This document shows positions 1,979 through 8,191 of a stretch of 34,456 bases of DNA, one piece after another. Position 1 is the first letter of the stretch; each line of letters opens with the position of its first letter. The position numbers were made by a program, and so were the translations under genes. This DNA comes from Planctomycetota bacterium (GTDB lineage: Bacteria; Planctomycetota; Phycisphaerae; Phycisphaerales; SM1A02), in NCBI GenBank assembly GCA_016873255.1, contig VGXR01000028.1:1-34456 (forward strand). Direction: 5' to 3'. Below the pieces are notes generated by a model, which was not told where the DNA came from, ran no database searches, and was given only the letters and a program-made list of their open reading frames with translations.

Positions 1979-3040
1979 TCAGACGGAGTCGGCGTCGGAC
2001 TCGAGGGTGTCCTTGAACAGGTCCAGGTTCTCGAGGTAGTTCGCGGTGCCGCGTGCCACGCAGGTGAGCGGGTCGTCGGCGATGCGGACGTCGAGGCCGG
2101 TGGCCCTGTTGAACACCTTGTCGATGCCGCGCAGCAGCGCACCGCCGCCGGCGAGCACGATGCCGTTGTCCACGAGGTCGGCGCTCAGCTCGGGCTTGGC
2201 CTTCTCGAGGACGCGCACCACGGCCTCGGCGATCAGGTTGACCGGCTCGGCGAGCGCCTCGCGGATCTCCTGGCTGGTGACCTCGACCTTGCGCGGCAGG
2301 CCCGACTTCATGCAGCGGCCGCGTACGTCCATCTTCATCTCGGGGCCCGCGGGGGCGGCCGAGCCGATGTCGATCTTGATGCGCTCGGCGGTCTGCTCGC
2401 CGATCACCAGCTGGTGCGCGCGCTTCATGTGGTTGATGATGGCGTCGTCGAAGTCGTCGCCGGCCACGCGGAGGCTCTCGCACTCGGCGATGGAGGCCAG
2501 CGAGATGATGGCGATCTCGCTGGTGCCGCCGCCGATGTCGATGATCATGCTGGCGGTCGGGTCGGCCACCGGGAGGTCGGCGCCGATGGCCGCGGCCATG
2601 GGCTCGTACACCAGGTACACGCGGCGCGCGCCGGCGCGCTCGGCGCTCTCGTACACGGCCTGCTTCTCGACGCTGGTGATGCCCGACGGGATGGCGATGA
2701 CGACGCGCGGCCCGAAGATGCGCGTGCTCTTGCCGTTCACCTTCTTGATGAAGTAGCCGAGCATGGCCTCGGTGACGGCGAAGTCGCTGATGACGCCGTC
2801 CTTCAGGGGGCGCACGGCCACGATGCCGCCCGGCGTCTTGCCGAGCATCTTCTTGGCCTCGTCGCCCACGGCCTCGCCGTCGTTGAGCACGATGTTGGTG
2901 CCCTTGCGGACGGCCACCACGGACGGCTCGTTCAGGACGATGCCCTCGCCCCGGACGCACACGAGCGTGTTGCAGGTGCCGAGGTCGATCCCCATGTCGA
3001 CGCTGAAGAGGCGCGAAAGCCAGTCGATCTCGAGAGCCAC
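1979..3040 (-). CDS. mreB: Actin-like cell-shape protein MreB
   Basis: 353 residues with all MreB/actin ATPase landmarks. Phosphate 1 is near the start (MGIDLGTCNTLV), followed by GIVLNEPSVVAV. Phosphate 2 is in the middle (IDIGGGTSEIAIIS), and the adenosine motif is near the end (GIVLAGGGALLRGID). MreB forms membrane-associated filaments that guide lateral wall synthesis. The GTG start at 3040 was chosen because AGGAAGGAG lies 6 nt upstream and the resulting N-terminus (ALEIDWLSRLFS) matches usual MreB length, including an amphipathic membrane helix. An in-frame ATG at 3109 would add 23 residues and is itself preceded at 7 nt by TATCCT, so a longer form cannot be excluded. First gene of the mreBCD-GlmU block. 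Confidence 0.95.
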   Translation of the reverse strand: MALEIDWLSRLFSVDMGIDLGTCNTLVCVRGEGIVLNEPSVVAVRKGTNIVLNDGEAVGDEAKKMLGKTPGGIVAVRPLKDGVISDFAVTEAMLGYFIKKVNGKSTRIFGPRVVIAIPSGITSVEKQAVYESAERAGARRVYLVYEPMAAAIGADLPVADPTASMIIDIGGGTSEIAIISLASIAECESLRVAGDDFDDAIINHMKRAHQLVIGEQTAERIKIDIGSAAPAGPEMKMDVRGRCMKSGLPRKVEVTSQEIREALAEPVNLIAEAVVRVLEKAKPELSADLVDNGIVLAGGGALLRGIDKVFNRATGLDVRIADDPLTCVARGTANYLENLDLFKDTLESDADSV

Positions 3041-3046
3041 TGCTTG

Positions 3047-3055
3047 CTCCTTCCT
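3047..3055 (-). promoter_or_regulatory. Shine-Dalgarno deciding the mreB GTG start
   Basis: AGGAAGGAG on the minus strand ends 6 nt before GTG 3040. It is one of the strongest ribosome-binding sites in the window and favours the GTG over the upstream in-frame ATG at 3109. Confidence 0.65.
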
Positions 3056-3066
3056 GAAGCCACGGA

Positions 3067-3090
3067 CCGAGGCGGGCTCCGCCGCCTCGG
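3067..3090 (-). other. 9-bp hairpin in the mreB leader
   Basis: Perfect inverted repeat CCGAGGCGG / CCGCCTCGG with a 6-nt loop, located between the putative mreB transcription start (about 3111) and its Shine-Dalgarno. It has no U-tract, so it is more likely leader structure than a terminator. Confidence 0.45.
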
Positions 3091-3116
3091 GGGCCGGTCT
3101 ACGGCCCATCGGACGG

Positions 3117-3543: not shown

Positions 3544-4443
3544 TCACTCACCCTTGCGGGCGATGGCGCGCTGGCCGGACTTCACTTCGCCGCGGGTGCC
3601 GGCGTCCTCGAGCTCGACGATGCCGACGGCGCGGTTGACGTCCACCTGCACGATGCGGAGGTTGCCGATGAAGTTGGACCCGTCGGCGATGGTCATCACC
3701 CAGCCCTCCTTCACGCCGTCACGGGTGCCGGCGTTGATCTCTGCGAGGGTGGCGTCCGGCTCGCGCTTGACGTCGATGACGGTGGCGCTGAGCGAGCGGT
3801 CGGCGACGACGGGGAGCGCGGTGTCGGCGGTGGCGCCGGCGCGCGGGGTCACCGAGCCGTGCAGGGCCGCGTAGCGCTGCACGTCGGCCATGGCGCGCTC
3901 CTTGTCCTCGGACACCTTCTGCAGCTGCTCCTGGAGCTGGCGCTTGGCGGCGGTCTCGCTGTCGAGGTCGCCCTGGAGGCGGGCCATCGAGTCCTGCAGC
4001 TCGACGCGGGCCTTCTCGGCCGCGAGGTACTGCGTGCGCGCGTTGTCGATGTCCTGGCGCATCGCGTCGATCAGCTTGGTCTGCAGCGTGTCGTTGGCGC
4101 TGGCCGACGCGAGCTGGCCCTTGAGGTCGGCGATCTCGATGCGGATGCGCTCGAGCTCGCGCTCCTTGTCGGCGCGCATCTGGATTTCCTTGTCGCGCTC
4201 CATGCTGGCGGCCGAGAGGCGCGCCTCGAGCGTGGAGATCTTGGCCTGCACCGCGGCGACGCTGGCGTTGTACGCGTCCTGGGCGACCGACACCTCGGCC
4301 GCGGAGGCCTTGGCGGCGGCCTGCGCCTCGGCGGCCTGCTGCTTGAACGAGGCCTGGTTCGTCGACGAGACCGCGGCGAGCGGCACGAGGGCGGCGACGA
4401 GGATCGCAACGAGCACGACGAGGATCTTGGTCAGTAGGTGCAC
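3544..4443 (-). CDS. Membrane-anchored coiled-coil protein, unknown function
   Basis: 299 residues. An N-terminal membrane anchor (about residues 5-25) is followed by a long Ala/Glu/Lys/Gln-rich coiled coil (about 30-190). After a linker comes a compact beta-rich C-terminal domain (about 213-299) with the pattern ATVIDV...INAGTRDGVKEGWVM...GNLRIVQVDVNRAVGIVEL. That 'N.G.rdGV..G..' loop recalls MreC and FlgT-type C-terminal domains, so the layout is MreC-like: anchor, coiled coil, periplasmic barrel. It might therefore act in envelope organisation beside mreBCD, but this is inference. Start GTG at 4443, with GAGG about 9 nt upstream. It is the first gene of a two-gene unit with 3350-3523. Confidence 0.75.
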   Translation of the reverse strand: MHLLTKILVVLVAILVAALVPLAAVSSTNQASFKQQAAEAQAAAKASAAEVSVAQDAYNASVAAVQAKISTLEARLSAASMERDKEIQMRADKERELERIRIEIADLKGQLASASANDTLQTKLIDAMRQDIDNARTQYLAAEKARVELQDSMARLQGDLDSETAAKRQLQEQLQKVSEDKERAMADVQRYAALHGSVTPRAGATADTALPVVADRSLSATVIDVKREPDATLAEINAGTRDGVKEGWVMTIADGSNFIGNLRIVQVDVNRAVGIVELEDAGTRGEVKSGQRAIARKGE

Positions 4444-4553: not shown

Positions 4554-4583
4554 GTAATACCCGAGACCTATACGCCCTGTCAA
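4554..4583 (-). promoter_or_regulatory. Promoter of the coiled-coil gene: TTGACA-18-TATTAC
   Basis: Minus-strand TTGACA (4583-4578, a perfect -35 consensus) is separated by 18 nt from TATTAC (4559-4554). The -35 overlaps the stop codon of the Lnt/HEAT gene. Predicted start is near 4548, leaving a leader of about 100 nt before GTG 4443. It is the only clear two-box promoter I found. Confidence 0.55.
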
Positions 4584-7354
4584 TGGCCTGCGGTTGCAGC
4601 GAGGATGGCCTTTGCTGCGGCAAGCTGGACCTGCGGGAACGGGTCAAGGAGCATCGCCTCGAGTTCCGGGACGACGGCCTGCCCGCCGGCGGTCCCCAGG
4701 GCCACGGCCGCCTGCGCCCGGACCGCCGGCTCGCGGTCCTGCAGGAGGGTGCGGGCGAACTTGGTGACGGTGCCGGCGTCGGCCGGGCTGATCTGGGCAA
4801 GTGCCCCGGCGCAGCAGATCCGGACCTCGGTGGGCCGGGCGGAGATGCCCGTGCCGTCGATGAGGCGCATCAGGATGGCGCGCGACCCCTCGTCCCTGAG
4901 GCGGGCGACCTGCCCTGCCGCGAGCGCCGTGAACTCGGCCTGCTCCCCGGGCGCGTACAGCGCGGCACGGATCGGCTCGATGCCGTCGGCCTCGCCGAGG
5001 CGCACGAGGGCCTCCGCGGCCTGCAGCTCCACCACGCGCACGCGCGCCGGGTTCACCTGGCGCATGCCCTTGCCGAGCGAGTCGCGGATCATCGCCACCG
5101 CGCTCTTGTTGCCGAGTTCGCCGAGCACGAGGTACGCGTTCGAGCGAACCTCCGGATCGTCGGAGCGGACCATGGCGCCGAGCGGCGACGGGTCGACCGG
5201 GCGGCCGAGGCGCGTGAGCGCGTAGATGGCGGCCGCGCGCACCGACGGGCTCTCGTCGACGAGGAGCGGCTGCACCGCGTCGGCCGCGGCAGCGAGCTTG
5301 GCGCGACCGACCTCCATGGCGGCGACGAAGCGCACGCCGCGGTTGGGGTCGGAGAGGAGCGGCGTGACGGCTGCCTGCAGGTCGGCCGGCGACGCGCCGA
5401 GCGCCTCGCACGCGTTGGCCCGGTACATCGGGACGTCGGAGGCGGTGGCCTGGCGAAGGAGCGTCAGCGCGGCGTTGCGCGCGTCGCCGTTGGACTCCAC
5501 CGGCAGCGCCACGGGCATGGCGCGGCCGTCGGCGGAGAGCTTCACCTCGCCGTCCTTCTGGATGCTCTGCCCGCGGCTCGACCACGGCTGCTCCTGCACG
5601 GACTGCTCGCAGCCGGCCACGAAGGGCACGAGCGCGACGGCGAGCACGGCCGCCGCGGCGGGGCCCGGGAGCGGGCGACGACGGAAGAGCCCGACGACGG
5701 CAGTGCCTGCGCAGGTGAGCATGAGTGCGATCGATGGTACTTCGCCCACGGTCGCGAAGGGCGGGACGCGACCGTCGAGCGGCGGCGAGGCGAGCAGCCA
5801 GCCCGAGGTGCGCGGCGCCGTGGGGCCGGACACCACCCTGCCCGATGAGTCGATGCCCGCGCACAGCCCGGAATTGGCGGCGCGCACCATGGGCGTCCGC
5901 GTCTCGATGCAGCGGAAGCGGGCGATCTGCAGGTGCTGCGCCCGTCCGGGGTCGTACCAGCCGAACCAGCCGTCGTTGGTGATGTTGACCAGGAGGTCGG
6001 CCGCGCGGCCGCGCCCCGCTGAGGCGGGGAACACGAGGTCGCGCGTGACCCATGTCATCGCGTCCTCGAAGCAGATGGCCGTGGCGATGCGCACCGTCCC
6101 GCCCTGCCACGGGACCTCGAAGCGGACCGGCTCGCCGCCGCGGTCGAGGTCGAAGGTCATGCCGGCGGCACCCATCGAGAGCAGCGCGCGTTCCAGCCAG
6201 TCCCAGTTGGAGATGTAGGGCATGGTCTCGCCGAACGGGGCCAGGAACACCTTGTCGTAGCGCGGGTACGGGGGCGGGCCCGGGTTGACGAGGTAGGCGC
6301 TGTTGAACTGGCGGTCCCACGTGAACCGGTCACCCTCCGGGCGAAGGCCGATGAACGCCGCGCTCCCCACGAGGAGCGGCGCACCCAGCCGCGCCGACAG
6401 CCCGGAGACAATCGTCCGGAAGCGGTCCCCCGGGAACCAGCCGTTGCGTTCCTGCAGGTCGATGGTGGCGGGCTCGAGCCCGTAGCCCGCGAGCATGGTC
6501 TCGGGCCACACCGCAAGGTGGATGGGCTGGCGATGCTCGGCGGCGTCGATGGCGCCGCGCAGGGTGAGTTCCGCGAACGACGGGACGTCGCGGGCCTGGT
6601 CGCGCGCCGCCCATGCCACCTTGTTGCTGGTGGCAAGGTCGGTCTGCACGAGGAGGACGGACGGCCCGCTGCCTGCTGGCGCGGACGAAAGCCGCCACAG
6701 GCCGTAGCCGAGGGCCCCGGCATGGAGCCCGCATGCCAGCGCGATGCCGGCAAGCGCGGTGCGGCGCCGTGCGATCGACGGGCTTCGCCGCGCGGCAACG
6801 GCATCGAGCGCGGCGCCGGCGAGCGCAAGCGGCAGGAGCGACGCGAGCATCTCGCCGCCGAGGTCGCAGCACTGGACGAGCGCCGGCGACTCCACGAGCG
6901 GATGCCCCCACCTGAACCACGGGTAGCCGTCGAAGAGGACGAGCGCCCGGAACGCCTCCTCGGCGCCGAAGGCGAGCGGGACGAGCGCTGCCCAGGGAAC
7001 CCACGCCGGGAGCGCGCGCGCGCAGCGCACGAGGAGCCAGAGCGCAAGCAGGTCGTGCAGCGTGCAGTACGCCGCGAGCGCGGGCGTCCCCGCCACGGTG
7101 ACCTGCAGCAGCCAGGCGTGCAGCACGAACCACTTCAGCCACAGCACCCCGGCGACGGCCCATGCCGTGCGCCAGCCGAACGCGGCGCGCACCGGCCCGC
7201 CGTCACGGGCGACGATGGCCGCCAGCGGCGCGGCCGCCACGAGCACGAGCGGCCACGCGCCCACCGGCGCGAACGCGCATCCGAACGGCACGGCGGACGC
7301 GACCGCCAGGAGCGCGGCGCGGCGCGCGGTGATCGGCGCATGCGCGTCGGGCAC
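4580..7354 (-). CDS. lnt: Apolipoprotein N-acyltransferase fused to a lipoprotein-like HEAT-repeat domain
   Basis: 924 residues in one uninterrupted frame. Residues 1 to about 560 are Lnt: several N-terminal membrane segments, then a nitrilase domain with Glu285 (VWPETM), Lys368 (YDKVFLAPFGE) and Cys428 (ICFEDAM), matching E. coli Glu267/Lys335/Cys387. It also has ITNDGWFGWYDPGRAQHLQ and a last membrane segment (about 541-557). Lnt adds the third acyl chain to lipoproteins. Then comes RRR (558-560), a second hydrophobic stretch and VAGC with Cys582, i.e. a lipoprotein signal peptide and lipobox. The remaining ~340 residues are HEAT/PBS-lyase-type repeats (e.g. DPNRGVRFVAAMEVGR, DPEVRSNAYLVLGELG). 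It starts at GTG 7354, 3 bp after accD. It could be a true fusion, a self-cleaved polyprotein, or two products using an internal start. Confidence 0.9.
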   Translation of the reverse strand: MPDAHAPITARRAALLAVASAVPFGCAFAPVGAWPLVLVAAAPLAAIVARDGGPVRAAFGWRTAWAVAGVLWLKWFVLHAWLLQVTVAGTPALAAYCTLHDLLALWLLVRCARALPAWVPWAALVPLAFGAEEAFRALVLFDGYPWFRWGHPLVESPALVQCCDLGGEMLASLLPLALAGAALDAVAARRSPSIARRRTALAGIALACGLHAGALGYGLWRLSSAPAGSGPSVLLVQTDLATSNKVAWAARDQARDVPSFAELTLRGAIDAAEHRQPIHLAVWPETMLAGYGLEPATIDLQERNGWFPGDRFRTIVSGLSARLGAPLLVGSAAFIGLRPEGDRFTWDRQFNSAYLVNPGPPPYPRYDKVFLAPFGETMPYISNWDWLERALLSMGAAGMTFDLDRGGEPVRFEVPWQGGTVRIATAICFEDAMTWVTRDLVFPASAGRGRAADLLVNITNDGWFGWYDPGRAQHLQIARFRCIETRTPMVRAANSGLCAGIDSSGRVVSGPTAPRTSGWLLASPPLDGRVPPFATVGEVPSIALMLTCAGTAVVGLFRRRPLPGPAAAAVLAVALVPFVAGCEQSVQEQPWSSRGQSIQKDGEVKLSADGRAMPVALPVESNGDARNAALTLLRQATASDVPMYRANACEALGASPADLQAAVTPLLSDPNRGVRFVAAMEVGRAKLAAAADAVQPLLVDESPSVRAAAIYALTRLGRPVDPSPLGAMVRSDDPEVRSNAYLVLGELGNKSAVAMIRDSLGKGMRQVNPARVRVVELQAAEALVRLGEADGIEPIRAALYAPGEQAEFTALAAGQVARLRDEGSRAILMRLIDGTGISARPTEVRICCAGALAQISPADAGTVTKFARTLLQDREPAVRAQAAVALGTAGGQAVVPELEAMLLDPFPQVQLAAAKAILAATAGH

Positions 7355-7357
7355 GCG

Positions 7358-8191
7358 TCACTTCCCCGAGTAGTCGATGATGCGGCTGATCTCGGTGCGG
7401 AGCGCCGAGCGGTGCACGATGCGGTCGACGAAGCCCGCCTTCTCGAGGAACTCGGCGGTCTGGAACCCTTCCGGCAGCGCCTGCCGGATGGTCTGCTGGA
7501 TCACGCGCGGCCCCGCGAAGCCGATCAGGGCCTTCGGTTCCGCGAAGATCACGTCGCCGAGCATGGCGTAGCTGGCGGTGACGCCGCCCGTGGTGGGGTC
7601 GGCGAGCACGGAGATGTACAGCCCGCCCGAGTCGTCGAAGCGCGCGAGCGCGGCGCTGGTCTTGGCCATCTGCATCAGCGAGAAGCCCGACTCCTGCATG
7701 CGCGCGCCGCCCGAGCAGCTGACGATCACGAGCGGCAGGCTGTGGTCGGTGGCGTGCTCGATGCAGCGCGTGAGGCGCTCGCCGACCACGCTGCCCATGG
7801 ACCCCGCCATGAACGTGAAGTCCATCACCCCGACCACGAGCTTGCGGCCCTTGATGAAGCCGGTGCCGGTCTGCACGCCGTCGATCTCGCCCGACTTGCG
7901 CTGCGTCTCGCGGAGCCGGTCGATGTAGGGCTTCTGGTCGACGAACCCGAGCGGGTCCATCGGCGACATGTCCGCGTCGAGGGGCTCGAAGGTGCCGGGG
8001 TCGAGCAGCTGCTCGATGCGCCGGCGCGCGGAGATGCGCAGGTGGTGGTCGCACTTGGGGCAGACCATCAGGTTGGCCTCGAGGCTCTTGCGGAAGATGG
8101 TCTCCTCGCACTCGGGGCACTGCGTCCAGAGGCCGTCGGGGACGGTCTTCTTGACGGCAACCGTGGCTTCGGTCCAGGTGGGTTCGGGCAC
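7358..8191 (-). CDS. accD: Acetyl-CoA carboxylase carboxyltransferase subunit beta
   Basis: 277 residues. It has the AccD-specific N-terminal zinc ribbon (Cys25, Cys28, Cys44, Cys47; CPECEETIF...MVCPKC) and the crotonase-fold carboxyltransferase domain, with SGGARMQESGFSLMQM, DPTTGGVTASYAMLGD and EPKALIGFAGPRVIQQT. With AccA it transfers carboxyl from biotin to acetyl-CoA, the committed step of fatty-acid synthesis; accA is not in the window. The GTG start at 8191 lacks a Shine-Dalgarno but lies 7 nt after TACACT, so the mRNA is probably leaderless. The gene ends 3 bp before lnt, so acyl supply and lipoprotein acylation may be co-transcribed. Confidence 0.95.
   Translation of the reverse strand: MPEPTWTEATVAVKKTVPDGLWTQCPECEETIFRKSLEANLMVCPKCDHHLRISARRRIEQLLDPGTFEPLDADMSPMDPLGFVDQKPYIDRLRETQRKSGEIDGVQTGTGFIKGRKLVVGVMDFTFMAGSMGSVVGERLTRCIEHATDHSLPLVIVSCSGGARMQESGFSLMQMAKTSAALARFDDSGGLYISVLADPTTGGVTASYAMLGDVIFAEPKALIGFAGPRVIQQTIRQALPEGFQTAEFLEKAGFVDRIVHRSALRTEISRIIDYSGK

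Follow-up and report, generated by a model that had tools for sequence, protein, structure and literature searches.

A candidate Lnt-lipoprotein polyprotein: in-frame fusion of Lnt and a HEAT-repeat protein in one bacterial family

The window, which is the whole stretch of 34,456 nucleotides that was analysed, contains a reading frame in which Lnt, a lipoprotein-maturing enzyme, appears to run on without a stop into what resembles a complete lipoprotein. The locus raises the question of whether the two are genuinely one gene and, if they are, whether the product stays in one piece or is taken apart into an enzyme and a lipoprotein that could itself be a substrate of that enzyme.

The fused reading frame and its parts

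The fused gene and its upstream neighbor are both transcribed leftwards, and their parts are as follows, with coordinates of the window and residues of the predicted protein.

4580..7354 (-), the whole fused ORF, 924 codons plus stop, with a GTG start and no internal stops
5678..7354 (-), the Lnt part, residues 1-559, with the membrane helices and the nitrilase domain, including Glu285, Lys368 and Cys428
5678..5740 (-), TM8, the last Lnt membrane helix, residues 539-559, a helix in the AlphaFold2 model
5663..5683 (-), the loop RRRPLPG, residues 558-564, predicted to be cytoplasmic and to play the part of a positively charged n-region
5612..5665 (-), a hydrophobic helix, the predicted h-region of the internal signal, residues 564-581 (helix at 564-580 in the AlphaFold2 model)
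5609..5620 (-), the lipobox VAGC, residues 579-582, with Cys582 as the predicted point of lipidation and cleavage
5483..5608 (-), the disordered linker of the predicted mature lipoprotein, residues 583-624, with low model confidence at 581-611 and WSSR at 591-594
4583..5482 (-), the HEAT-repeat solenoid, residues 625-924, from Pfam and the AlphaFold2 model
7358..8191 (-), accD (acetyl-CoA carboxylase carboxyltransferase beta), the next gene upstream, with 3 nt between it and the lnt start

Downstream of lnt, and also leftwards transcribed, are a gene at 3547-4443 whose product has a hydrophobic N-terminus and only weak, coiled-coil-like Pfam matches below the cut-off, and mreB at 1982-3109, so that lnt sits by a cell-shape gene.

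The first part of the ORF is a full-length Lnt. The Pfam domains LNT_N (21-180) and CN_hydrolase (269-511) are present, the NCBIfam profile TIGR00546 (lnt) scores 191 bits with a cut-off of 132.9, and the 24 best structure matches are all Lnt proteins, the first being 8aq2 (E 5.2e-20). Glu285 lies within a WPET motif and is invariant in alignment A1 (17 rows), and we take it to be the counterpart of E. coli Glu267. Lys368 and Cys428 align in the structure alignment with the catalytic Lys335 and Cys387 of E. coli. Following the E. coli residue numbers in PMC3850990, which include the required residues W237, E343, Y388 and E389, E376 and E430 match E343 and E389, and the required Tyr388 is replaced by Phe429; this phenylalanine is invariant in A1, and the profile marks CFE as kept. 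The complete Lnt with Glu285, Lys368 and Cys428 that an earlier note on this DNA had described is thus borne out by the profile score, the aligned Lys and Cys and the invariant Glu.

Only one match to the LNT_N profile in this genome exceeds the cut-off. A candidate second Lnt, scoring 24.8 bits with LNT_N (cut-off 27.1), was rejected, because the ORF resembles by eye a von Willebrand-type protein.

The C-terminal part contains four stretches matching Pfam HEAT_2, the best at residues 664-733. An AlphaFold2 model of the fused protein (mean pLDDT 91, pTM 0.72, from an alignment of 40 rows), which we read for confidence and secondary structure and not for helix packing, places TM8 at 539-559 and, after a short turn, a second helix at 564-580; a low-confidence stretch at 581-611 starts at the lipobox (residue 581), and HEAT helices span 625-921. 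The HEAT repeats reported in the earlier note are therefore present, but they account for about 300 of the roughly 340 residues that it had assigned to them, because the HEAT helices run from 625 to 921. The RRR, hydrophobic core and VAGC that it had placed after Lnt are found at residues 558-560, in the helix at 564-580, and at 579-582, respectively. The signal-like segment is therefore internal, with about 557 residues of Lnt before it, and not at the N-terminus where a type II signal is placed.

Fused and split loci among relatives

We examined 147 loci, and 142 of them, including the window's own, have both halves and could be classed: 56 have one stop-free frame across the junction and 86 have two genes (84 distinct loci, two having been fetched twice). 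The duplicates (L148 and L149, of L031 and L032) were excluded from the split count and from the tree; L001 and L002 were left unclassed, and L014, L016, L021, L078 and L130 have one half only. The 56 fusions come from 56 genomes in nine genera, all in the window's own planctomycete family, with 16 in genus g26, 15 in g47, 11 in g1, seven in g48, three in g6, and one each in g2, g35, g54 and g56; in eight of the fusions a contig end truncates the Lnt side. A further 14 fused, 58 split and eight partial loci share contigs with genomes already in the set and are not an independent count.

The family search covered 181 genomes, of which 124 were classed first and two more, both split, later. The remaining genomes had no match, had the match at a contig edge, or were unlisted or unfetched, and the fused share is not to be read as a rate because these many unclassed genomes include several of the most diverged genera. 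Outside the family, none of 34 loci (16 from other families of the order and 18 further ones) is fused. The 20 loci fetched later, 18 of them outside the family, are all split, each with a HEAT gene following lnt; the 18 were chosen, partly for a long open frame, among the matches listed in a class-wide search of 248 genomes, and there may be fusions outside the family beyond those matches.

In the split loci the two genes are direct neighbors in the same order as in the fusion, and in 40 of the 84 split relatives a start codon of the HEAT frame lies exactly 4 nt before the lnt stop. The earlier note had proposed looking both for the same fusion in related genomes and for the halves as separate neighbors, and both occur. 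With fusions in 56 genomes and separate neighbors in 84 plus 20 loci, neither arrangement holds throughout the homologues.

These counts also bear on an explanation in which the fusion is an artifact, an assembly or sequencing error that masks a frameshift or a stop codon separating two normal genes, a danger that the earlier note had recognized. The records of the relatives are mostly metagenome assemblies, which gives the idea some footing, but the same stop-free frame is found concordantly in 56 genomes of nine genera, which in effect refutes it, and both halves are under purifying selection at the 24 loci measured; we consider an artifact scarcely credible. The other part of that note's claim, that Lnt and a lipoprotein-like HEAT protein share one frame, is accordingly confirmed by the stop-free 924-codon ORF and by the same fusion in 56 genomes.

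A tree of the Lnt part was built from 138 rows (54 fused and 84 split, with L137 and L138 left out as too short) and rooted on an outgroup of 16 rows taken from the order's other families, all of them split. Built by a quick method, it has no bootstrap values and some of its branches are long; the fused or split label changes six times on it, and at least three changes are forced by well supported branches. A single clade containing all fusions is rejected (AU p 0.00034 on the quick tree), and therefore there has been either repeated fusion or fusion followed by re-splitting. From these sequence comparisons, the fused state had either several gains or several gains and losses, two histories that the AU test does not tell apart. 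The fusions probably arose where lnt and a HEAT-lipoprotein gene were neighbors, often with an overlap.

The junction as a predicted lipoprotein signal

The segment between the two domains has the features of a type II signal, namely a positive n-region, a hydrophobic h-region and a lipobox with Cys at +1, although at an internal position. The Cys is kept in all 56 fusions, with residue -1 being G in 44, A in ten and S in two, and in residues 538-628 of A1 Cys582 is the only invariant column, W591 and S592 being the next most kept (at least 90%). When the 56 fusions are aligned on the Cys, the positive residues lie mostly at -28 to -16, acidic residues are nearly absent upstream of the h-region, K, R, D and E are absent from -11 to -1 in every fusion, and polar residues follow the Cys. 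This profile of offsets is free of a bias that affects the loop rule, by which each loop ends at K or R by construction, so that the net positive loop charge counted in all 56 fusions is in part a product of the rule.

The rates of evolution change at the same place. Measured in five groups of closely related loci (24 in total), dN/dS is 0.24-0.75 for the loop and signal, 0.02-0.26 for the stretch from the Cys onward, 0.09-0.15 for Lnt and 0.04-0.12 for HEAT; three of the groups show a strong step at the Cys, and g47 (0.33 to 0.16) and g26 (0.41 to 0.26) a weaker one. A fast-evolving loop and signal followed by a constrained stretch from the Cys is the pattern expected for a signal peptide in front of a constrained mature part. 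Beyond the Cys, a W-S/G-S/T-R/K motif is found within 45 residues in 55 of the 56 fusions (residues 591-594 in the window, DNA 5573-5584), and a similar motif is present in the N-terminal part of 47 of the 84 split HEAT proteins. Several members of genus g26 (L074, L080, L084 and others) have a much longer, Pro/Ala-rich linker between Cys and HEAT.

By a simple rule, a lipobox with an upstream start is found in 74 of the 84 split relatives. Four of the ten that fail it are in the window's family (L082, L086, L092 and L103) and may only have been missed by the rule; the other six are in families f5 and f6, where six of the seven neighboring HEAT proteins (L028, L141, L143, L145, L146 and L147) seem to be without a lipobox and L142 has one. 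These six seem instead to carry an ordinary secretory signal of the signal peptidase I type, so that lipidation is apparently not needed for the HEAT protein everywhere.

The junction could alternatively belong to a bifunctional membrane protein that is never cleaved, in which a ninth span holds the HEAT domain in the periplasm by the Lnt active site and the Cys is perhaps lipidated by Lgt and left uncut. The AlphaFold2 helix at 564-580 comes right after TM8, as such a span would, and lnt and HEAT genes are adjacent in every classed unfused locus, and therefore the two proteins may work together. A lipobox is superfluous for a working ninth span, however, and yet the segment evolves fast with its composition kept and with G, A or S at -1 and Cys at +1 in all 56 fusions; moreover, most split relatives seem to produce a free lipoprotein, by the simple rule above. 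We regard a permanently uncleaved protein as unlikely.

Separate initiation is a second alternative, in which an internal start near the end of Lnt yields the lipoprotein and the Lnt-HEAT read-through is a by-product; the earlier note had suggested ATG545 or a nearby GTG. Coupled starts probably predate the fusion, given the HEAT starts 4 nt before the lnt stop in 40 of the 84 split loci, and 29 of the 56 fusions have an ATG, GTG or TTG in the loop (ATG in 11). In L038, for example, an ATG lies 19 codons before the Cys, and in such fusions a separate start may add a product. The window's own sequence argues the other way, as ATG545 is inside TM8 and codons -36 to -13, counted from Cys582, include no ATG, GTG or TTG. 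Counting only these three codons, the loop is without a start in 27 of the 56 fusions, the window included, so that internal initiation cannot account for the fusions in general; furthermore, Lnt has no stop of its own and must carry the HEAT part whatever starts inside. This makes separate initiation quite unlikely as the explanation, and the start sites put forward in the earlier note are disfavored.

A proposed polyprotein and its relation to known systems

We favor a polyprotein, with a probability of roughly 0.7 resting on the sequences and the structure model, in which an internal type II signal would be modified by Lgt and cut by LspA to give Lnt and a HEAT lipoprotein. The two are translated as one chain, there being no stop between the parts in the sequence. 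Unless a frameshift or early termination intervenes, the missing stop after the Lnt part means that Lnt should become free only by proteolysis. From topology, composition and the model, TM8 would end in the cytoplasm, and the positive loop and hydrophobic segment would together serve as an internal signal of type II, exporting the HEAT domain across the inner membrane. Lgt and LspA act at the outer face of the membrane. Lgt would add diacylglycerol to Cys582 and LspA would cut before it, and the cleavage would free mature Lnt and leave the HEAT apolipoprotein as a substrate for Lnt itself. The outcome would be a fixed 1:1 supply of Lnt and HEAT, with release of Lnt dependent on the two earlier enzymes of the pathway. 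The topology on which this depends, proposed already in the earlier note, agrees with PMC8048626, where both the N- and C-termini of Lnt are cytoplasmic, and with the model, in which TM8 (539-559) is followed by the helix at 564-580; with both ends of Lnt in the cytoplasm, the segment after TM8 would cross outward and the Cys would be at the outer face.

Genes for both LspA and Lgt are present in the same genome. Two Lgt matches exceed the cut-off there (L152 on contig C46 and L151 on contig C55), the second of which may be a diverged paralogue. An apparent Lgt fusion (an open frame of 721 aa) was rejected, because its long upstream stretch lies over an antisense ORF that looks by eye like an anthranilate phosphoribosyltransferase, leaving what reads as an ordinary Lgt.

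Several points weigh against the polyprotein, among them the possible starts in the loop of 29 fusions, the weaker rate step in g47 and g26, and the HEAT proteins of f5 and f6 that seem to be without a lipobox. In addition, the signal helix would still be tied to a polytopic protein when Lgt and LspA act, given a short tether between TM8 and the h-region (median eight residues across fusions by the loop rule, about 3-7 in the window), and Lgt modification without cleavage would equally preserve the Cys. The fuller account has a polyprotein with several gains, or gains and losses, in one family, its splitting by Lgt and LspA, and Lnt acylating its own former C-terminus; we lean towards it with some reserve.

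If the polyprotein is real, a signal still attached to a polytopic membrane protein is open to processing by signal peptidase II, and an enzyme that matures lipoproteins starts out as a precursor in the pathway to which it belongs. The polyprotein would then be one that signal peptidase II processes, the maturation pathway would complete itself, and the HEAT lipoprotein may be a partner of Lnt. The HEAT lipoprotein has a strong genetic link to Lnt, and the fused and split relatives are a natural set for seeing how operon genes merge, or part again, with a signal peptide kept.

The window's Lnt is like known Lnt proteins (TIGR00546; PDB 5n6h, 5n6m and 8aq2) in its fold and its catalytic Lys and Cys, but whereas those have a cytoplasmic end after TM8 (according to PMC8048626), it continues into a signal-like helix, a lipobox and a HEAT domain. 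Lnt was known before to occur fused to another domain, as in the mycobacterial Ppm1-Lnt fusion Rv2051c / BCG_2070c (PMC3850990). There too Lnt is joined to a second functional domain, and the partner gene is separate in M. smegmatis, but the partner is a Ppm-like (polyprenol-monophosphomannose synthase) domain, whereas that of the window is a predicted exported lipoprotein.

In other Phycisphaerae, lnt and a HEAT-lipoprotein gene lie side by side, with homologous halves in the same order and the lipobox rule satisfied in 74 of 84 loci, but each of the two genes starts and stops on its own, where the window has both halves in one ORF. The earlier note knew of no described Lnt-lipoprotein polyprotein, and in the open-licence literature we likewise found no report of one, nor of any Lnt that carries HEAT repeats or any polyprotein with an internal lipobox. 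A bacterial polyprotein cut by a signal peptidase was known before, namely the Bradyrhizobium fbcH cytochrome b/c1, which resembles the fused gene of the window in that a polytopic membrane protein is followed in frame by an internal signal and an exported protein. In fbcH these are a signal peptidase I signal and a cytochrome, whereas the window has a lipobox, hence signal peptidase II, and a lipoprotein-maturing enzyme. The layout of the fbcH kind, with one ORF, two proteins and an internal signal after a cytoplasmic end, is found in the window as well, the cytoplasmic end of Lnt being taken from PMC8048626.
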